A DNA stretch of 48,908 bases from Synechococcus sp. UW140 (GTDB lineage Bacteria; Cyanobacteriota; Cyanobacteriia; PCC-6307; Cyanobiaceae), in contig CAMCMT010000018.1 of assembly GCA_945875915.1 (NCBI GenBank), positions 1 to 48,908 on the forward strand, read 5' to 3'. The notes beneath the pieces were generated by a model that was not told where the DNA came from, searched no databases, and saw nothing but the letters and a program-made list of their open reading frames with translations. Position numbers and translations under genes: made by a program. Positions 1-6,321 of this stretch are shown here, piece after piece. Each line of letters starts with the position of its first letter. The stretch's first letter is position 1.

Positions 1-147
1 CAGAACAGCACCGAATCGAGTACAACGTCTACAGACCGCATTCGGCTCTCCAGGGGCGTACGCCCCTGGAGGTCATCCAGCAATGGAAGGCGGCTTGATC
101 AACCCACTAGCTCTCATAAGGACTGGAGCAGCAAAGGGGGTCACGTC
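1..147 (+). mobile_element. Right end of an IS3-family insertion sequence
   Basis: The window opens inside an insertion sequence. The transposase tail ends at 98 and is followed by about 50 non-coding bases that finish with GGGGGTCACGTCA at about 135-147, a plausible terminal inverted repeat (reading TGACGTGACCCCC inward from the end). Directly after this end, on the opposite strand, PIN-domain coding sequence begins, which suggests the element inserted into a vapC gene. The left end lies outside the window, so the boundary and target duplication are inferred. Confidence 0.6.
3..98 (+). CDS. IS3-family transposase (OrfB, integrase core), C-terminal fragment
   Basis: Only the last 31 residues are in the window. 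They contain the segment YNVYRPHSALQGRTPLE, which is the signature end of the DDE integrase core of IS3-family OrfB transposases (tyrosine/asparagine, then RPHS.L...TP.E). The final catalytic Glu of the DDE triad lies just upstream, outside the window. The stop codon TGA is at 96-98. The protein would cut and join the IS ends. Whether the full gene is intact cannot be told from here. Confidence 0.8.
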   Translation, partial: EQHRIEYNVYRPHSALQGRTPLEVIQQWKAA

Positions 148-328
148 ACCGTCTTCGTAGAGAGTGTCGAACTGGCGGTGCATTAGCTGAGCCCAGCGGC
201 GGAAGGCAGGGCCATCCATGCTGAGGATGTTGAAGGTGTTGCTCACCTGATCGAGCCAGCGTTCGATCGCATCGGCTTTGGCAGAGATCTGATAGCGGGC
301 GAGTTCGATCCCGGCCTGGATTTCGCTG
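148..328 (-). pseudogene. vapC-like PIN-domain toxin, internal fragment
   Basis: Reading the minus strand from about 328 down gives SSEIQAGIELARYQISAK, then AIERWLDQVSNTF, WAQLMHRQF and LYEDG. This matches the middle of VapC toxins, Mg-dependent PIN-domain RNases, where the sequence normally continues from LYED into MIAATA and the last catalytic Asp. Here it stops at LYEDG, exactly at the inferred IS end. The N-terminus with the first catalytic Asp is missing and replaced by the tail of an unrelated gene (320-355, other strand). No partner antitoxin is visible. The fragment is therefore broken at both ends and cannot make an active toxin. Confidence 0.65.
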
Positions 329-355
329 CTGAAGGAGTACGGGGGAATGGCATGA
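320..355 (+). pseudogene. C-terminal scrap of the family-A membrane protein (third copy)
   Basis: These bases read ISLLKEYGGMA and a stop, nearly identical to the last residues (ISLLEEYGGMA) of the complete gene at 2310-2750; similarity continues weakly past the stop. Only about 36 coding bases survive. The fragment joins, at about 320-330, to vapC sequence read from the opposite strand, so it marks a recombination joint. It shows that at least three copies of this gene once stood in the island. Confidence 0.6.
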
Positions 356-450
356 ACTCCCCACTCCTGCCGCGGCGATCAGGCCGGTGGCCTCGTGAGT
401 GCAGCTCGTGATGCCTCGTCTCTGACGCAGATCTCCGAGTGCGTGCCATA

Positions 451-469
451 GCTATCAAAGATTGATAGC
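451..469. repeat. Perfect 8-bp inverted repeat, possible operator
   Basis: GCTATCAA, a 3-base spacer AGA and TTGATAGC form a perfect short palindrome. It sits between broken genes (vapC fragment and ydcF remnant) and has no T-run, so it is not an obvious terminator. It could be the leftover operator of a lost toxin-antitoxin operon, since such operons usually carry palindromes of this size; that is inference. The rest of 356-490 holds nothing I can assign. Confidence 0.35.
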
Positions 470-489
470 ATCGTCTTGGTTCTCCCCGA

Positions 490-990
490 GCGGTGATGCC
501 TTCCAGTTACGTCGTTGGTTCCCATTTCGAGCCGCCCCGCAGATCTGATCGTGGTGCTTGATGGCGGTTCGGCGCGTCTGGAGTAGGCCGAGCGCTTCCG
601 GCAGCAAGTGCTGCAAGACCATCCCCGGCCGGGCCGGTCGCTGGAGTTAGCTCACCTGCTGTTTCGCTGCTCCAGGGCTTCGACACCGCCACCCAGATCA
701 CCGCCCTCGCCCACTGGTTGCGCCACCAGCCCCCACCCCGCAGTGCCCGGGTGTGGATTGCCACCGATCCCGATCACACCGCCCGCGCCGTAGTCCTCGC
801 CCGCATCGCCCTCGGCAGCCAGGGCATTCGCGTTGGCCCGGCTGATTGGCCTACGCCCAGCTCCGCTGAACGCCGCAGGCTTCTCCGGGATGCCCTGAGC
901 CTCACCCTTTGGCAGGCCACCGGGTCCACCGTCGCCCGGCTTGTTCCTGATGCGCTGGCCCGCAAACGGGCGGATTGTGGGGTTTTGGCG
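490..990 (+). pseudogene. ydcF-like (DUF218) gene, broken by a stop and a frameshift
   Basis: Two frames together spell a DUF218/YdcF-type protein, a family linked to cell-envelope or polysaccharide functions. The first frame gives DLIVVLDGGSARLE, then an in-frame TAG at 584-586, then AERFRQQVLQDHPRPGRSLE and AHLLF. Near 650-672 the homology moves to another frame: QGFDTATQITALAHWLRH, VWIATDPDHTARAVVLARI and LLRDALSLTLWQATG. The VWIATDPDH.ARA block corresponds to the family's conserved ValThrSer-x-x-His-x-x-Arg-Ala segment. A stop plus a frameshift make this a pseudogene. A second copy of its last third lies at 2031-2212. Sequence from about 990 to 1180 holds nothing I can assign. Confidence 0.65.
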
Positions 991-1180
991 TGGCAGCCTC
1001 GTGAAAGCCGCTTGAACGTTTGTCCGGCTGCAGGTCGTGAGGGCTCTGTGGGTTTGGGAGTTTCCAGCTGGAGATGGCACCAGGCCCTGCCCGGGCGCAG
1101 AACGCTGGCGGCTATCAGCGCTGAACGCCCAGCGAATCCGAGATGTGATTGGCTCAGTTTCCAGCCCCACGTCAGGTCGA

Positions 1181-1207
1181 TACGGAAAAAACCTGGTTTT
1201 CTCCGTA
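1181..1207. promoter_or_regulatory. Near-perfect 13-bp inverted repeat, candidate autoregulatory operator
   Basis: TACGGAAAAAACC, one central T and GGTTTTCTCCGTA form an inverted repeat with a single mismatch. It lies 31 bases upstream of the ATG of the ribbon-helix-helix gene. RHH proteins encoded in two-gene operons usually bind palindromes at their own promoter, so this is a reasonable operator. It could also fold as a hairpin, but it is not followed by a T-run. Confidence 0.5.
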
Positions 1208-1238
1208 TGATTGGACGCATAGATGCCGGATTAGTTCC

Positions 1239-1442
1239 ATGAGTTCCTCTCGCCTAGAAGTGCGCCTTCCTGATCGCCTCAGTGAGCGACTTGAATTGCT
1301 GGCCTTATCCGAAGGCCTCACAAAAACCGACGTGTTCCGCCGAGCTCTCGCGCTCTACCTGCTAGTCAAGGAGCGGGAAGAGGGGGGATCCACCCTCCAA
1401 TTCGTCAAGGACGACCAACGGGAAACCCTTGTCAGCATCTGA
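1239..1442 (+). CDS. Ribbon-helix-helix (CopG-type) DNA-binding protein, likely antitoxin or repressor
   Basis: This 67-residue protein has a typical RHH layout: a beta strand RLEVRLPDRLSERL (about 5-18), then LALSEGLTKTDVFRRALALY (about 21-40) forming the two helices, with a short C-terminal tail. RHH proteins dimerise and insert the strand pair into the major groove. The ATG at 1239 is chosen because the RHH strand starts directly after it and the upstream in-frame extension has no family resemblance. The stop TGA at 1440-1442 abuts the ATG of the next gene with no gap, so the two are translationally coupled. A palindrome at 1181-1207 is a plausible operator. It is probably an antitoxin or small autorepressor, given its partner. 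Confidence 0.7.
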   Translation: MSSSRLEVRLPDRLSERLELLALSEGLTKTDVFRRALALYLLVKEREEGGSTLQFVKDDQRETLVSI

Positions 1443-1715
1443 ATGAGCGATCCCAATGCTGATTTCAAATCGCTCCTGGATCTCACCGGTGGTGTTGAGG
1501 TCAGAAGCTCAGAACACCCCGATGACCGCAGGCAGAGGCACAGGCTGGAAGGGAACGCTGTCGCTTTGATTGGGGTTATTTCTGCCTTCTCTGCAGCCAT
1601 CCTGCTCCTGAGCTTCTTTCGCCCTATCCCAGAAAAGCGAGCTGACTGGGCTGCTGGCGTACTGCAGCTGGTCCTAGGTGGTGCCGTGGGGTTTGCCCTG
1701 AAGCGTTCGTCTTGA
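1443..1715 (+). CDS. Small two-helix membrane protein coupled to an RHH protein
   Basis: I do not recognise the family. The 90-residue product has a charged N-terminal part (1-37, with a DDRRQRHR cluster) and two hydrophobic segments at about 39-59 (ALIGVISAFSAAILLLSFF) and 69-86 (WAAGVLQLVLGGAVGFAL), ending in KRSS. The short loop between them holds EKRAD. It would sit in a membrane as a hairpin. Its ATG follows the RHH stop codon immediately, so translation is likely coupled. The arrangement, a small DNA-binding protein first and a small membrane protein second in a toxin-antitoxin-rich island, suggests a membrane-acting toxin, but no sequence match supports this. Confidence 0.55.
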   Translation: MSDPNADFKSLLDLTGGVEVRSSEHPDDRRQRHRLEGNAVALIGVISAFSAAILLLSFFRPIPEKRADWAAGVLQLVLGGAVGFALKRSS

Positions 1716-1803
1716 TGCTGCCTCACGCACCCGTTCCGCAACCAACCGTTGATTTCCACCATTTGCCCGTCCGTACAGCCTGAACAGAAAAACGGGGGAA
1801 GCC

Positions 1804-1915
1804 CACTCGTCCTGCGGCGCCCACCAATGCGGCTCTGCACTGCCAGAGGGGTCACAAGATTCAAGCCATAGCGTCCCGCCAGCCAGGCGCCGCCGATCAG
1901 GTTGAGGGTTTCCAT
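1804..1915 (-). pseudogene. Truncated N-terminus of a Fic-like or related winged-helix protein
   Basis: From an ATG at 1915 the minus strand reads METLNLIGGAWLAGRYGL, then VTPLAVQSRIGGRRRT, after which the resemblance stops. This pattern (GAWLA.RYG..., L.V.SRIG..R) is reminiscent of the N-termini of certain Fic-family proteins; that identification is from memory and uncertain. About 37 residues remain of what would be a protein of several hundred. The three repeated motifs at 1955-2018 lie just upstream of its start and may be its operator. Confidence 0.35.
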
Positions 1916-1954
1916 CCAGGATCAGGCACCCATCGGGCACCCAACTGCCCTAAC

Positions 1955-2018
1955 CACGCAAAAACAAACTTTACTGCGCAAAAACGTGCAGATCACCAGT
2001 CCAATGCGCAAAAGCATG
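1955..2018 (-). repeat. Three spaced CGCAAAA motifs, candidate operator cluster
   Basis: CGCAAAAAC occurs at 1957-1965 and again at 1977-1985 (20 bases apart), and CGCAAAAGC at 2007-2015 (30 bases further). The second and third are preceded by TG, giving TGCGCAAAA. Spacing in multiples of about ten puts the motifs on the same helix face. The cluster ends about 40 bases upstream of the truncated minus-strand gene at 1915, as expected of an operator array. Confidence 0.45.
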
Positions 2019-2030
2019 TGAGACTCCACC

Positions 2031-2212
2031 GCATCGCCCTTAGCGGCCAGGGTTCGCGTTGCCCCGGCTGATTTGCCGACCCCCAGCTCGGGTTAACGCC
2101 GCAGGCTTCTCCGGGATGCCCTGCGCCTCACCCTTTGGCGGGCCACCGGCAGCACTGGCGCTTGGCTCGCCCCCCAGGGTGTTTCCCGCAAACGGGCAGA
2201 TTCTGGGGTGTA
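2031..2212 (+). pseudogene. Second copy of the ydcF-like gene tail (direct repeat of 803-984)
   Basis: This stretch is a diverged direct repeat of 803-984. Shared blocks include AACGCCGCAGGCTTCTCC and GGGATGCCCTG, followed by CCGCAAACGGGC, in the same order and at the same spacing to within two bases. It therefore encodes a damaged end of the same DUF218/YdcF-like protein and has no start or catalytic part. Unlike the first copy, it is followed directly by a complete family-A/B gene at 2310. Confidence 0.7.
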
Positions 2213-2309
2213 GGGGGTGCTGGCAACGCGGCCAGGGTTTTCCGTAATTTCACAGATGCTTCTTTGGTTCGCCTGTACCAGTCTGTAGTCAGGGTTTGGG
2301 CTGGCTACG

Positions 2310-2750
2310 GTGTTGATTGGATTTGACCGTCAAGGCTGGATTACGGTTTTCGCCGCCCTGCTCCTTGCCTTGATCACGCTGTTCACCAATTACAACCATG
2401 TCGACCTCCTGGGAGCCGCTTCCGTCGATCTACCGCAGCAAGCAGGAATTCCTTGCATCGCTGCCGCCGTGGCGGCGGCTGTTGCAGAAGCTCAATTGGC
2501 ATCCAACGATCGATACAAGCGTGCAGCAATACGAGCTCGAGCAGAGGATGCTGCAAATGAGCAAAGAAGACGAGCAGATGAAGAAAGAGGACGAGCGGCT
2601 ACGGAAGCTCGACGAGCGTTTCGACGAGCTCAGCAGCAAGCTCAGTGCAATCTTGTCCAGCTCCGGCACCAGCTAGACCCCTCCGAACGCAATGCCAGGC
2701 GAGTCCGAGACGTGATCTCTCTGCTGGAGGAGTACGGGGGAATGGCTTGA
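2310..2750 (+). CDS. Family-A conserved membrane protein, copy 1 (outer frame of a nested gene pair)
   Basis: The 146-residue product begins with a hydrophobic segment (GWITVFAALLLALITLF, about 8-24), then a second moderately hydrophobic Ala-rich segment (about 45-63), a strongly basic/acidic Arg-Ala-Glu region (about 65-112) and a conserved tail ending ISLLEEYGGMA. It is homologous to 5866-6321 and to the scrap at 320-355. Start is GTG 2310 or TTG 2313; the paralogue starts with ATG at the equivalent place. A second open frame (2398-2676, +1 relative) runs through its middle. Arg codons in that middle part are mostly CGA and AGA, unlike the CGC/CGG used elsewhere, as if codon choice were set by the other frame. 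Function unknown. Confidence 0.7.
   Translation: MLIGFDRQGWITVFAALLLALITLFTNYNHVDLLGAASVDLPQQAGIPCIAAAVAAAVAEAQLASNDRYKRAAIRARAEDAANEQRRRADEERGRAATEARRAFRRAQQQAQCNLVQLRHQLDPSERNARRVRDVISLLEEYGGMA
2398..2676 (+). CDS. Family-B coiled-coil ORF nested in copy 1 (+1 frame)
   Basis: This 92-residue frame lies entirely inside the family-A gene. It starts at an ATG conserved in the second copy and reads MSTSWEPLPS, FLASLPPWRRLLQKLNWHP and then a charged heptad-like coiled coil (about 46-86) with KEDERLRKLDERFDEL. Copy 2 has the same elements: MSTS, YLASLP.WRR.L..LNW.P and KEDERLQKLDARLDEL. Its codons are mostly G/C-ending, as in ordinary genes here, while the A frame over the same bases uses rare A/T-ending codons. 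No clear ribosome binding site precedes the ATG. It could be a true overlapping gene, a product of frameshifting from A, or a by-product of A's repetitive Arg/Ala/Glu codons. Confidence 0.45.
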   Translation: MSTSWEPLPSIYRSKQEFLASLPPWRRLLQKLNWHPTIDTSVQQYELEQRMLQMSKEDEQMKKEDERLRKLDERFDELSSKLSAILSSSGTS

Positions 2751-2820
2751 GGCCCCTAGACCTGCCTCGGCGCTCAGGTCAGCCCCCCTTTGGTGCTGCA
2801 CGAAAGTCGAGATAGGCTGA

Positions 2821-3123
2821 ATGCTGTCGCCCTCACTCTCCATGGCTTCCGCGCTCCATCCGCCCGCCATCAAGCTCGTTGGCAGCAATGGCCAGATCTC
2901 GCTGGGCAAGCAGTATGCCGGCCGCCATGTTCTGGTGGAAGAGTCCGAGCCGGGTGTCTGGATCGTTCGCACCGCCACAGTGATTCCAGACAATGAGCGC
3001 TGGTTGCACGAACCCGCTGCCGCGGCAGCCCTGCAGGCTGCGATGGCCTGGTCCGCCGCTCACCCACCAGCGGATGCCCATCTGAATGAAACCCTGACGC
3101 GCCTTGGCTGTGATCAAGCCTGA
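2821..3123 (+). CDS. Antitoxin of a RelE-type toxin-antitoxin pair
   Basis: The 100-residue protein carries a SpoVT/AbrB-like strand pattern near its start (IKLVGSNGQISLGKQYAGRH, about 17-36), then WIVRTATVIPDNERWLHEP and an acidic/helical C-terminus. This arrangement resembles cyanobacterial antitoxins found upstream of RelE-like 'cytotoxic translational repressor' genes, which is exactly its position. A purine-rich GAGATAGG stands just upstream of the ATG at 2821; ATG 2842 is an alternative start. Its end overlaps the start of the toxin gene. It should neutralise the toxin and probably repress the operon. Confidence 0.65.
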   Translation: MLSPSLSMASALHPPAIKLVGSNGQISLGKQYAGRHVLVEESEPGVWIVRTATVIPDNERWLHEPAAAAALQAAMAWSAAHPPADAHLNETLTRLGCDQA

Positions 3124-3430
3124 AGGCAAAATCAGGCTGGATCTGAACAACCCGGTGTTCCAGGAGCAGTTGCTCACGCTGCAGAAGGCTGAGCGCCATG
3201 CGGCCCTTGACACCCTCAACAAGATCCGCCAGCTCACCTGGAACCAGTTCTATCGCGACCCGGGGATCAAGTGGGAAAAAATCACCAGCATCAAGCCACC
3301 GGCTGGAATCGATGCCGTCTATTCTCTGCGGATCAGCCGTTCACGCAGGGCAACAGCGCATCGAGAGGGTGAGTACATGCGGCTCCTCACCATTGCCCAG
3401 GATCACGACGCGACTGACGGGAGGAAATGA
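3104..3430 (+). CDS. RelE-like toxin (cytotoxic translational repressor family)
   Basis: The 108-residue protein has the layout of RelE/ParE-superfamily ribosome-dependent mRNA endonucleases: IRLDLNNPVFQEQLLTLQK (about 10-28), a helical LNKIRQLTWNQFYRDPGIKW segment, then the core strands YSLRISRSRRATAHREGEYM and RLLTIAQDHD. The last block, with several Arg and a His, is where catalytic residues of the family lie. The start is TTG 3104 or GTG 3110; both overlap the antitoxin stop at 3121-3123, so the genes are translationally coupled. It forms the best-supported type II toxin-antitoxin operon of the island. Confidence 0.75.
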   Translation: MAVIKPEGKIRLDLNNPVFQEQLLTLQKAERHAALDTLNKIRQLTWNQFYRDPGIKWEKITSIKPPAGIDAVYSLRISRSRRATAHREGEYMRLLTIAQDHDATDGRK

Positions 3431-3508
3431 TTCTTTAGTTTCATGCGGCCCTATAATAATAAGTTGGCAGCCAGCCCTAGAATTCCCACCTCGACATCTG
3501 AACAGGGT

Positions 3509-4216
3509 TTAGGCGGGGATTTGGCGCTTCAATCCAATCAGCTTTTGCCAGAGGACGGCCTTTGGCTCTTTAATCTTCAGGGCTTGCCTGCACCGCTCTA
3601 GCCAGCCATCGCGACCCAGCAGGCGCTCTAGAGACTCAATCAGATCCTTCTGAACGGACTCCCCGTAGGCCCCTTCCGCTTTAGATAGGGCGTTGAGTAG
3701 CTGGTTTTGCTTCAACGGCAGGTGGGCAAGATCCAGCAGATCTCGGCTGAAGACTCCGTCATCGTTCCAACGATCTGAATTGGCAAGTAATTTGCTGCAG
3801 GCCATGTCAGCCAGGGTTAGACAGGAAACAGTGCAGACGCTATCTTCAGGGCCAGGCGGATCAAGGCGAACCCTGCCCTCGAGAACAATCTCGAACTTAA
3901 GGGTTTCCCCTTCCACGTTTAATCTTGTTCTGATGCCGTACTGATCCATCAAGGGTTCACGCTCTTCCATGATTGTGCACCCATGATTAAGAAAAATCGG
4001 TTTCAGACTGCTTGCCTGTCGTATCATCTGCCGCAGCTCTCGATAGCCCTCCAGATTAGATACTAGAAAGTCGATGTCAACGGATTCTCGAAATTCTCCG
4101 TAGCGCAGGGCGATCGCGGTGCCACCACCAAACAGGCATCCCCGTTCGCCCAGCACCCTAGGGTCGAGTTGCAGAAGAACCTTGGCAATCCGCCGGTGAT
4201 GCTCCCGTCTAAACAT
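3509..4216 (-). CDS. AbiEii-type nucleotidyltransferase toxin
   Basis: The 235-residue protein contains GCLFGGGTAIALRYGEFRES followed by VDIDFL (about 26-51), the GG-x-A...D-x-D nucleotidyltransferase motif of the AbiEii/MenT toxin family, which transfers nucleotides onto targets such as tRNA. A later SCLTLADMACSKLLANSDRW block fits the conserved Lys-containing helix of the family. Its ATG overlaps the stop of the upstream XRE gene by 8 bases (ATGTTTAG), so the two form an operon. With an XRE antitoxin this is a recognised toxin-antitoxin arrangement; phage defence is a known role for related AbiE systems, but is inference here. Confidence 0.8.
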   Translation of the reverse strand: MFRREHHRRIAKVLLQLDPRVLGERGCLFGGGTAIALRYGEFRESVDIDFLVSNLEGYRELRQMIRQASSLKPIFLNHGCTIMEEREPLMDQYGIRTRLNVEGETLKFEIVLEGRVRLDPPGPEDSVCTVSCLTLADMACSKLLANSDRWNDDGVFSRDLLDLAHLPLKQNQLLNALSKAEGAYGESVQKDLIESLERLLGRDGWLERCRQALKIKEPKAVLWQKLIGLKRQIPA

Positions 4217-4715
4217 GGATCCCCATGAAGGCTTGCCTAAGGTCTTTGATTAATTGTTGCTCGTGGGGCCCAATCAGGTCTTGATTCAAATGCCGGTGAT
4301 GGCGTTCGTAGATCCCAGCGGCCTCCTGGGGGGTGAGCACAGTATTGCCATGTACATGCCAAGCCAGCTGCCGTAATGCGGGATAGGCGGCTAAATCGAT
4401 GAATGCGGGAAGCAAGCACGCCGGGATGCTTGCTTCGCTGCTGCCCAGGGGCTTCTCCTTAGCTTCGGACCTGCCTTTTGCCTGAAGTTCAGCTAGGGGG
4501 AGATCTAGGGCGTTGAGCACATTCAGCAAGGCCCCCACGGTCACCGATGCCGTGCCCTTTTCGATCCTGTGCAAGGTCACCCGTGAAATGCCTGCCGCCC
4601 CTGCTGTCGCCACGGCCGTGAGCCCCAACTCTCTACGTCGCTCCTTAATCCTGCAGCCGATCACCTGCAGGAGTTCTTGGCCGCCGATTTGGAGCCTGGG
4701 CGCGGCCGCTGGCAT
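4209..4715 (-). CDS. XRE-family antitoxin partnered with AbiEii-type toxin
   Basis: The 168-residue protein has an N-terminal helix-turn-helix of the XRE/Cro type (about 14-72: IGCRIKERRRELGLTAVATA, then AGISRVTLHRIEKGTASVTV and LLNVLNALDLPLAEL). The C-terminal part (about 90-168) is helical with no recognised motif and may bind the toxin. It is the first gene of a two-gene minus-strand operon and ends inside the start of the nucleotidyltransferase gene. The HTH makes operon autoregulation likely. Upstream, 4716-4871 holds the divergent promoter space to the MNT gene and no gene I can support. Confidence 0.8.
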   Translation of the reverse strand: MPAAAPRLQIGGQELLQVIGCRIKERRRELGLTAVATAGAAGISRVTLHRIEKGTASVTVGALLNVLNALDLPLAELQAKGRSEAKEKPLGSSEASIPACLLPAFIDLAAYPALRQLAWHVHGNTVLTPQEAAGIYERHHRHLNQDLIGPHEQQLIKDLRQAFMGIHV

Positions 4716-4871
4716 TGGGCCCTGAGTTTCATTTCAACCATTCTAGCTTCGATGTCCCTAATGAGAAACAGTTCTTGCGGCTCGGCCCTGGGGCTGGCTT
4801 CTGGCTCGGGCGTCCTCCTGTGCCAGGCCTCCTGCCCTGGGGGCACCCTCCCCCGTCGCTAGCCTCCTGCC

Positions 4872-5249
4872 ATGGCGGCTGCTCCCTCCCCCACCCCTTT
4901 TGAGCTCCTGCGCCAGCAGCGCCATGGCGCCTGGCTAGCCGATCTCACCACTCGCTTAGAGCAGTTGGTAGCCAGCTCAGATAGCGCAGATAGGGGCCCC
5001 TTGGAGATTCTGCTCTTTGGCTCCCGGGCCCGAGGCGACTGGGATGGCCTCTCCGATACGGATCTGCTCGTGGTTGCAATAGAGAAACAGCAGGCATCCC
5101 TCTGGGTTGATCGTCTGCTGGACGCCGGCCTGGCCCAGGACGTGGTGGCCTTCGACCAACCCAGCTGGCAAGCCCTTGCCGCCTCCCCTTCCCCCTACTG
5201 GCGATCAGTGAAATCCCAGGCGATTCCGCTTCTGCACCGGGGCCCATGA
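4872..5249 (+). CDS. MNT-domain nucleotidyltransferase (antitoxin of MNT-HEPN pair)
   Basis: The 125-residue protein carries the minimal nucleotidyltransferase motif ILLFGSRARGDWDGLSDTDL (about 45-64), that is G-S-x-A-x-G followed by D-x-D, and a later acidic residue in DVVAFDQ. MntA-type proteins of MNT-HEPN pairs modify their HEPN partner by adding AMP, blocking its RNase activity. The stop overlaps the HEPN ATG by four bases (ATGA at 5246-5249). Start ATG 4872 is preceded by only weak purine content. All visible catalytic residues are present. Confidence 0.85.
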   Translation: MAAAPSPTPFELLRQQRHGAWLADLTTRLEQLVASSDSADRGPLEILLFGSRARGDWDGLSDTDLLVVAIEKQQASLWVDRLLDAGLAQDVVAFDQPSWQALAASPSPYWRSVKSQAIPLLHRGP

Positions 5250-5647
5250 ACGCCCGCCCCCAAGCTTGGCTTGCCCAAGCTCGTAGCGACTTAGATCTGG
5301 CTCAGCTCGCCTGCCGCAATGGGTTCCTTGCCCAGGCTTGTTATTTCGCCTCCCAGGCCGCAGAAAAGGCGCTCAAAAGCGCCCTGCTTGAACTTGGACT
5401 AGAGGCCCCCCCCCACACCCCTGTGCTCGGAGATTTGCTTCAGCGCCTGCAGGTAGCCGGCCTCGACACCGCTGCCTTCCAGACCCTGCCCCTGAAGGCC
5501 CTCAGCCGCATGGCCATCACGTCGCGCTATCCGATCGATGCCACTCCGCCGGCCGAATTATTTGACCGCGCTGAAACTGAGCAAGCCATTGCTGTGGCAG
5601 CTGCCGTGATCGCTGCCATTGAGGCGCTGGATCGGCAACCAGGCTAG
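5246..5647 (+). CDS. HEPN-domain protein (toxin of MNT-HEPN pair)
   Basis: The 133-residue helical protein shows the HEPN core: WLAQARSDLDLAQLACRNGF (about 9-28), then YFASQAAEKALKSALLELGL (33-52), the usual Q-A-x-EKxxK helix, and a later SRYPIDATPP (93-102). HEPN toxins are RNases with an R-x4-6-H motif. Here the corresponding Arg94 is followed by Tyr-Pro without a His within six residues, so catalytic status is uncertain. It overlaps the MNT gene by four bases and is the second gene of the operon. Confidence 0.8.
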   Translation: MNARPQAWLAQARSDLDLAQLACRNGFLAQACYFASQAAEKALKSALLELGLEAPPHTPVLGDLLQRLQVAGLDTAAFQTLPLKALSRMAITSRYPIDATPPAELFDRAETEQAIAVAAAVIAAIEALDRQPG

Positions 5648-5865
5648 GAATCCCATCTAGAAGACTTTTGTAGCGCGGGGTGGCTGATCCCTACTTGCGG
5701 GGGCGGTGTCCTTTGAAGACCCGAACGCCCATGGCCATCTGGCGGGCCTCCCCGCTGCGGCCCCCGCTGCCTTGCGCTGCTCCCACGCTCAGTAATTTCG
5801 CCGATGCAGGCCTGGATCGTTGCTGCCTAAGTTGCGCCCTGCGTCGCCAGAACACAGTTACGGTG

Positions 5866-6321
5866 ATGGGGTTAGATCAGCAGGGGTGGATCACCATCGT
5901 CGCCGGCCTGTTGCTGGCGCTGATTACTCTCTTTACGTCCTACAGCCATGTCGACATCCCCGGTTTCGGCGCCATCGGCCTCAATCAGCAAGTCGGATTA
6001 CCTTGCATCCTTGCCTCGCTGGCGGCGTTGGTTGTCGATGCTCAACTGGCGACCCGTCGTCGAATACGAGATCAGAGAGATCGAGTTCAAGCACAGGAGG
6101 ATCGCGCACGAGCAGCGGATGAAGCAGCTGATGAACGAGAAAGAGCAGCTGCAGAAAGAGGACGAGCGGCTGCAGAAGCTCGACGCGCGGCTCGACGAGC
6201 TCGACGCCAAGATGGCTGCACTCTGGCCCAGCTCGACTTCCAACTCAATCCAGGACCGTCCACCCGCCAGCGACTCGCAGACATGATCGCCCTGATCCGC
6301 GAATACGGCGAACCGGCCTAA
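5866..6321 (+). CDS. Family-A conserved membrane protein, copy 2 (outer frame of a nested gene pair)
   Basis: The 151-residue product starts MGLDQQGWITIVAGLLLALI with a clear membrane segment (about 7-23), has a second hydrophobic Ala/Leu stretch (about 47-62), a long Arg/Ala/Glu-rich segment (about 66-122) and a tail ending in IREYGEPA. It is about half identical to copy 1, and homology extends upstream (GTAATTTC..GATGC at 5792 and 2244). ATG 5866 is preferred over the long upstream open extension because copy 1 aligns only from here. As in copy 1, the middle overlaps a +1-frame ORF. The copies differ in length by seven codons in the overlap, a change that keeps both frames open. Confidence 0.7.
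   Translation: MGLDQQGWITIVAGLLLALITLFTSYSHVDIPGFGAIGLNQQVGLPCILASLAALVVDAQLATRRRIRDQRDRVQAQEDRARAADEAADERERAAAERGRAAAEARRAARRARRQDGCTLAQLDFQLNPGPSTRQRLADMIALIREYGEPA
5948..6286 (+). CDS. Family-B coiled-coil ORF nested in copy 2 (+1 frame)
   Basis: The 112-residue frame lies within family-A copy 2, again +1 relative to it. It has the conserved MSTS start, YLASLPRWRRWLSMLNWRP (about 19-37), and a long charged coiled coil (about 38-90) ending KEDERLQKLDARLDEL. Over the first 36 codons it is identical to the nested frame of copy 1 at 21 positions, compared with 19 for the enclosing frame (hand count). Codons here (GAG, CTG, AAG, CAG, ATC, GAC) match ordinary genes of the window. The stop falls about 35 bases before the stop of A. 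No ribosome binding site is evident, so translation is unproven. Confidence 0.45.
   Translation: MSTSPVSAPSASISKSDYLASLPRWRRWLSMLNWRPVVEYEIREIEFKHRRIAHEQRMKQLMNEKEQLQKEDERLQKLDARLDELDAKMAALWPSSTSNSIQDRPPASDSQT

Follow-up and report, generated by a model that had tools for sequence, protein, structure and literature searches.

Two conserved, overlapping reading frames in cyanobacteria: a putative nested gene pair for a membrane protein and a coiled-coil partner

Does one stretch of DNA encode two proteins at this locus and, if so, how is the inner protein made and what may the two do together? The question arose from a window, i.e., the whole stretch of 48,908 nucleotides analysed here, which comes from Synechococcus sp. 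UW140 (contig CAMCMT010000018.1). The sequence-only reading of this window had described, in two copies, an open reading frame (ORF) nested in the +1 frame of a longer one. It had suggested dual coding, with either a membrane protein and a soluble partner or a frameshift product that joins the two. The outer protein and its frame are called A, the nested +1-frame protein and its frame N.

The frame pairs of the window and their relatives

Both frame pairs were located at the positions given by the sequence-only reading, and both nested +1 ORFs begin with ATG. The features of the window are as follows.

319-383, plus strand: third-copy fragment, 3' end of A only, 82% identity over 65 bp to 2714-2778
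about 1239-1442: RelB-like ribbon-helix-helix ORF
2304-2311, plus strand: GCTACGGT, -10-like motif (TANNNT) that overlaps the start of A in copy 1
2310-2750, plus strand: frame A, copy 1, 146 amino acids, GTG start; two-helix membrane hairpin, long Arg/Ala/Glu helix and C-terminal helix in this order (from family search, AF2 model and hydropathy)
2398-2676, plus strand: nested frame N, copy 1, +1 frame, ATG start, 92 amino acids; SLPPWRR..LNW motif and coiled coil
within N: segment SKQEFLASLPPWR, distinct from the N coil
2821-3430: uncharacterised ORF pair
3509-4715, minus strand: AbiEii with a helix-turn-helix (HTH) partner
4872-5647: MNT nucleotidyltransferase and HEPN
5859-5864, plus strand: TACGGT, same TANNNT motif core, just 5' of the A start of copy 2
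5866-6321, plus strand: frame A, copy 2, ATG start
5948-6286, plus strand: nested frame N, copy 2, +1 frame, ATG start, 112 amino acids

The two window copies were recounted. Within the 26 codons before the nested ATG, 27 differences were found, distributed 5/4/18 over A positions 1/2/3, which reproduces the earlier hand count of 18 at third positions. For the next 36 codons the recount gave 12/9/13 where 12/10/13 had been stated; one figure was thus off by one, and the spread otherwise agreed. Identity over these 36 codons again came to 21/36 for N and to 19/36 for A, and the seven-codon length difference between the copies proved to be real. In copy 1, the tail of N is shortened by about 12 residues by a TAG at 2674-2676, which falls on an A leucine codon, CTA; hence, a change silent in A could have created this stop. 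A 109-bp stretch is repeated 5' of copy 1 (875-983 and 2101-2209, 80% identity); together with the A 3'-end fragment at 319-383 it suggests local duplication and decay. The region around the copies (1-6321) is rich in toxin-antitoxin-like genes.

Homologues were collected, and the pair turned out to be far broader than the two copies first noticed. Within the GTDB family of the window, 400 genomes were sampled. Searches with A detected it in 78 of them, spread over 14 of 59 genera and with at most 13 matches in one genome; N searched alone was found in 68 of the 400, again in 14 genera. Relatives are present, for example, in the cultured strains Synechococcus sp. CS-1331 and Synechococcus lacustris str. 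Tous. An A profile matched 33 of 386 genomes across the phylum, including families f2, f6, f10, f12, f13, f14, and f19. An independent N profile recovered 28 of these 33 and gave three additional weak matches (G406, G409, and G633), which were set aside as probably chance coiled coils. The separate phylum searches with A and N thus converged on the same genomes, and neither the same-family nor the phylum searches revealed a lineage with N alone or A alone. No relatives were found in plasmids, phage records, or viral contigs. Multi-copy loci are arranged head to tail, all N lying on one strand at 40 of the 41 loci with more than one N; a constant third gene was not found by neighbour clustering. 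Judged from these matches, the putative A/N pair family spans at least eight cyanobacterial families, often with many tandem copies.

Conservation of the nested frame and selection on both frames

The main set consisted of 100 clean full-length copies from the same GTDB family; copies are linked through common descent and duplication, and with those within a genome related they do not represent 100 independent trials. The nested ORF was open in all 100, at the same start site, with ATG in 98 and GTG in two. Upon synonymous recoding of A with local codon usage, N stayed open in 19% of trials on average, and in 36% when the gene's own codons were shuffled. For 43 copies from other families with a GC content of 0.44-0.56, N survived recoding of A in only 2.6% of trials; these outgroup copies, 43/43 of which are open, had been chosen for a complete N. 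Only two full-length A segments lacked a complete N, both from the window's own family and both internally deleted. Among other long ORFs at these loci, a +1 ATG ORF of at least 90 codons in a 145-codon stretch occurred in 2.3%. Both frames are open in homologues beyond the expectation for a single coding frame (100/100 and 43/43 compared with 0.19 and 0.026).

The copies fall into two main subtypes, MSTS (start CAT|GTC) and MTTSPS (start TAT|GAC). A position matrix built from one subtype and applied to the other in the block around SLPPWRR..LNW scored N at 3.3-3.7 bits per residue above recodings that preserve A, and every copy tested outscored all 100 such recodings. The gain was just 0.14-0.47 bits per residue in an upstream A-only control. 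The reverse conditional test, conservation of A given N, was clearly positive. Frame +2 was dropped as a control of the conditional test, because it is almost wholly fixed by A and N and hence not independent.

Codon usage of A is strongly distorted in the overlap. GCC accounts for a fraction of 0.03 of the alanine codons in the coil overlap as compared to 0.57 in A-only codons and 0.49 in long ORFs; CGA and AGA together make up 0.77 of the arginine codons in the coil overlap and 0.11 in A-only codons. An A-frame GCC gives proline in N, and GCT or GCA give Leu, Gln, or His. Codon usage was derived from the long ORFs taken together, and for some of these the frame may be the wrong one.

Differences per site were determined for 50 independent pairs. 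At A positions 1/2/3 they amounted to 0.137/0.082/0.251 before the overlap, 0.177/0.120/0.166 inside, and 0.222/0.187/0.343 after it. Four-fold sites differed at 0.112 inside the overlap and at 0.223 and 0.348 outside. The sequence-only reading had named a suppressed synonymous rate in A over the overlap as a check on dual coding; the rate was indeed depressed, to 0.39 of that outside.

dN/dS in the nested frame had been named as a further check. For this purpose we wrote our own overlap-aware count, modelled on OLGenie (PMC7531306), and applied it to 53 non-overlapping pairs from 164 copies, a choice that corrects only partly for kinship among copies. It yielded dNN 0.058, dNS 0.089, dSN 0.086, and dSS 0.343. 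The two estimators of dN/dS gave 0.67 (95% interval 0.57-0.77) and 0.26 (0.19-0.37) for A and 0.65 (0.55-0.75) and 0.25 (0.18-0.37) for N. Doubly synonymous sites were few (173), which renders the second ratio of each pair less secure; all four ratios and their 95% intervals were below 1. The A-only flanks showed a dN/dS of 0.27 (0.21-0.34) and a third-position excess on both sides. Both frames are under purifying selection of about equal strength.

Loss of the two frames is uneven. Both frames are intact in 177 copies, with 179 full A segments in total. About ten copies carry an A broken by one in-frame stop and a whole N; three copies have an interrupted N with A open over that span, and in these the ends of A are decayed as well. 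The mutational opportunity for stops is 1.23-fold higher in A than in N. Dual coding was to be considered refuted by homologues with A intact and N repeatedly broken, or with A broken and N retained. The about ten A-broken copies are of the latter kind and go some way toward such a refutation; beyond that it fails, since they are a minority against the 177 with both frames intact. What they suggest is more frequent loss of A than of N; they do not suggest that A is no gene.

Four independent tests, namely conservation of each frame given the other, distortion of codon usage, overlap-aware dN/dS, and persistence in distant families, support dual coding. We consider it almost certain, from sequence comparison and without experimental demonstration of translation, that A and N form a same-strand nested pair in which both frames are coding.

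Translation of the nested frame

The start of N is retained while the codons beneath it vary. In the MSTS subtype it is formed by CAT|GTC in 49 of 55 copies, although only 27% of His in long ORFs is encoded by CAT. TAT|G, GAT|G, and AAT|G still provide it in copies with Tyr, Asp, or Asn, respectively, at this position of A, and all outgroup copies (43/43) use TAT|G. Between subtypes the nested start position moves by one or two codons. A start codon that is kept while the underlying A codons change points to selection on the start itself, which a frameshift would not need.

No obvious Shine-Dalgarno sequence or ribosome-binding site precedes the nested ATG, and RNA folding near the nested start is ordinary. 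In 93 of 100 copies a nested-frame stop codon precedes the start by 7 or 9 codons; nothing was drawn from this, since by chance alone 74% would have one within 13 codons. The inferred route, which we regard as probable, is that N would be made by internal initiation at its ATG.

The motif [GC]CTANNNT was found 60-170 nt upstream of the N start in 79 of 164 copies, as compared to an expected 0.056 per 110 nt. Roughly half of the copies thus have it on the A start or directly upstream, a frequency that far exceeds the background. Should the motif act as a promoter, transcripts would start close to or within the start codon of A. The A start is less clear than the N start, because the -10-like TANNNT motif overlaps it.

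Three other readings of what is translated have to be weighed. A programmed frameshift, in which ribosomes from the A start shift by +1 near the beginning of the overlap and fuse transmembrane (TM) helix 1 to the N coil, is conceivable inasmuch as A begins upstream in every copy and the frames could be joined. Such a shift needs no ATG, yet, within one or two codons, 98 of 100 copies have one and the other two a GTG; the start persists as CAT|G, TAT|G, GAT|G, or AAT|G, throughout the outgroup as TAT|G. A conserved slippery site was not noticed either, although no formal search was made. The frameshift product put forward by the sequence-only reading is thus disfavoured and appears improbable. 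Still less credible is that only N is real and that its codons merely happen to leave frame A open. A stop-poor coil makes long open frames cheap, and about ten copies keep N with A interrupted; against this, A outlasts N at both ends, where it is under one-frame selection (dN/dS 0.27) with a third-position excess in both flanks, and it is conserved given N. The converse, in which only A is real and N is open by accident within a GC-rich gene for a coiled coil, can practically be dismissed. Stops in the +1 frame are rare in the part of A that is rich in Arg, Ala, and Glu, whatever the selection, and GC-rich genomes contain many long chance ORFs. Yet N is conserved beyond A, the codons are distorted, the start is kept, and synonymous change drops to 0.39 of the outside rate; moreover, N persists at a GC content of 0.44-0.56, where recoding seldom leaves it open.

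Predicted structures, possible function, and related systems

The AF2 model of A (mean pLDDT 83) comprises a helix at residues 4-24, a continuous helix at 40-119, which is made up of the second hydrophobic segment and a stalk, and a helix at 123-140. Hydropathy indicates two membrane segments in most copies. The stalk is Arg-rich directly after segment 2, which by the positive-inside rule suggests a cytoplasmic location. For N (mean pLDDT 80), AF2 predicted two short helices (15-21 and 24-33), on which the conserved Trp/Arg motif lies, and then a long one at 36-89. No membrane segment or hydrophobic signal was detected in N (maximal 19-residue hydropathy 0.76). The earlier suggestion of a membrane protein with a soluble partner fits these predictions; the AF2 models show single helices only.

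Searches of Pfam, NCBIfam, PHROG, PADLOC, and PDB sequences revealed no fitting family, generic coiled-coil matches only. Fold searches gave nothing below E 0.001, and no solved structure among them resembles A.

The N coil has a clear heptad, with 69% hydrophobic residues at one phase; at that phase Ala is enriched in A. The same nucleotides encode LNW in N and AQLAS, the end of hydrophobic segment 2, in A. Coil length differences are multiples of seven codons in 18 of 31 non-zero cases, and two outgroup loci contain 21-bp tandem repeats in the overlap, such as AGAGCAACGAAGAGCTGAGGA, which read LRKSNEE in N and an EEQRRAE-type heptad in A. The mean net charge is +4.4 for the A coil and -1.3 for the N coil. 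As the nucleotides are shared, neither coil can change its length without the other.

Further length variation was observed in the overlap. In one outgroup array (L194, 740-1117) tandem repeats of 54 bp and 21 bp have lengthened it, and the nested ORF reaches 195 amino acids. Short insertions of differing sequence occur in several copies (L093, L153, L119, L127, and L128) at one shared position immediately preceding LNW, and in three of these copies the insertion introduces a stop into the N frame.

We propose the following mechanism. A ribosome at the A start would produce a membrane protein with a two-TM hairpin, a long, probably cytoplasmic helix rich in Arg, Ala, and Glu, and a C-terminal helix. 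A second ribosome would start internally, about 29 codons in, at the conserved +1 ATG and produce N, a small soluble protein whose Trp/Arg amphipathic helix (SLPPWRR..L..LNW) probably lies on the membrane surface and is followed by a leucine-heptad coiled coil. With LNW and AQLAS encoded by shared DNA, both coils would begin at the same point and always be of equal length. A and N may then bind as a membrane-anchored, length-matched hetero-coiled coil; binding was inferred and not modelled. A nested coding pair with membrane protein A and surface protein N as partners is the best explanation as a whole, to which we assign a probability of about 0.6. The parts differ in firmness. For the A-N partnership as such, with binding and topology inferred, we see about even odds. 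Only tentatively do we suggest an ancient family in which one DNA stretch supplies both strands of a hetero-coiled coil and 21-bp heptad steps alter both partners equally.

Membrane-anchored partner proteins are the most likely identity of A and N, their function being inferred. The main competing function is a toxin-antidote module with A as membrane toxin and N as coiled-coil antidote, nesting ensuring that A is never present without N. The losses are in line with it, tending to mark N as the partner that has to be retained: among the 179 segments full-length A with a broken N is absent, apart from the two internally deleted fragments, and A is broken with N whole in about ten copies at a stop opportunity differing only 1.23-fold. 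Such a module would also be in keeping with the scattered occurrence of the pair (78/400 genomes), with its high copy number and the fragments in decay, and with recurrent neighbours including PIN, PemK/MazF, and Phd/YefM, to which the window adds its MNT-HEPN and AbiEii genes. However, the asymmetry is numerically small, and the three copies with N interrupted have A open there, albeit with decayed ends. In Pfam, NCBIfam, and PADLOC, no toxin or antitoxin family is homologous to A or N, and the neighbouring genes, for which there is no background rate, may merely mark genomic islands. We regard a toxin-antidote role as unlikely, although it cannot be neglected, and retain membrane-anchored partners as the preferred reading.

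By architecture, the closest known system is Rz/Rz1 of phage lambda, in which the products are partners and Rz1 is nested wholly in the +1 frame of a gene for a membrane-anchored coiled-coil protein (PMC6139136). A/N has this arrangement too, its second gene lying in the +1 frame of one for a membrane-anchored protein. A lipobox Cys marks Rz1 as a lipoprotein, whereas only 6 of 100 N sequences have a Cys within the first 20 residues. The two hydrophobic segments of A count as a further difference, and Rz/Rz1 occurs in phages, whereas for A/N phage records and viral contigs contain no relatives and PHROG no convincing family. For embedded o-spanins the start typically falls 0.4-0.5 of the way along the host gene (PMC6139136). 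That of N comes earlier, at about 0.2 of A. Assignment of A/N to the two-component spanins was rejected, as a lipobox is missing from N and none of the phage records and viral contigs searched carries the pair. In hok/mok type I toxin systems, same-strand frames overlap around a small membrane protein, and mok is regarded as a coupling leader, not as a conserved partner protein. A/N differs in that both frames are conserved over about 100 codons.

A further nested bacterial gene that has been named is comS, within srfA of Bacillus (PMC12350097). Like N, it is a same-sense, out-of-frame nested gene. To our knowledge, comS and other reported bacterial nested genes are single loci of narrow lineages; in contrast, A/N is multi-copy, occurs in several cyanobacterial families, and shows length changes common to both frames. 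No earlier report of the A/N pair was found in the open-access literature. Outside viruses, long genes that lie wholly within another on the same strand are considered rare, and an ORF inside a larger gene is commonly dropped by annotation tools (PMC12350097).

A/N is a chromosomal, multi-copy, class-wide nested pair with equal purifying selection on both frames, and a protein family missed by standard libraries. It offers a natural test bed for two proteins that share one sequence and for initiation without an obvious ribosome-binding site, and it also bears on whether nesting serves to keep two partners together. If the proposed mechanism is true, membrane-anchored A and surface-bound N would stay length-matched through duplication and decay.
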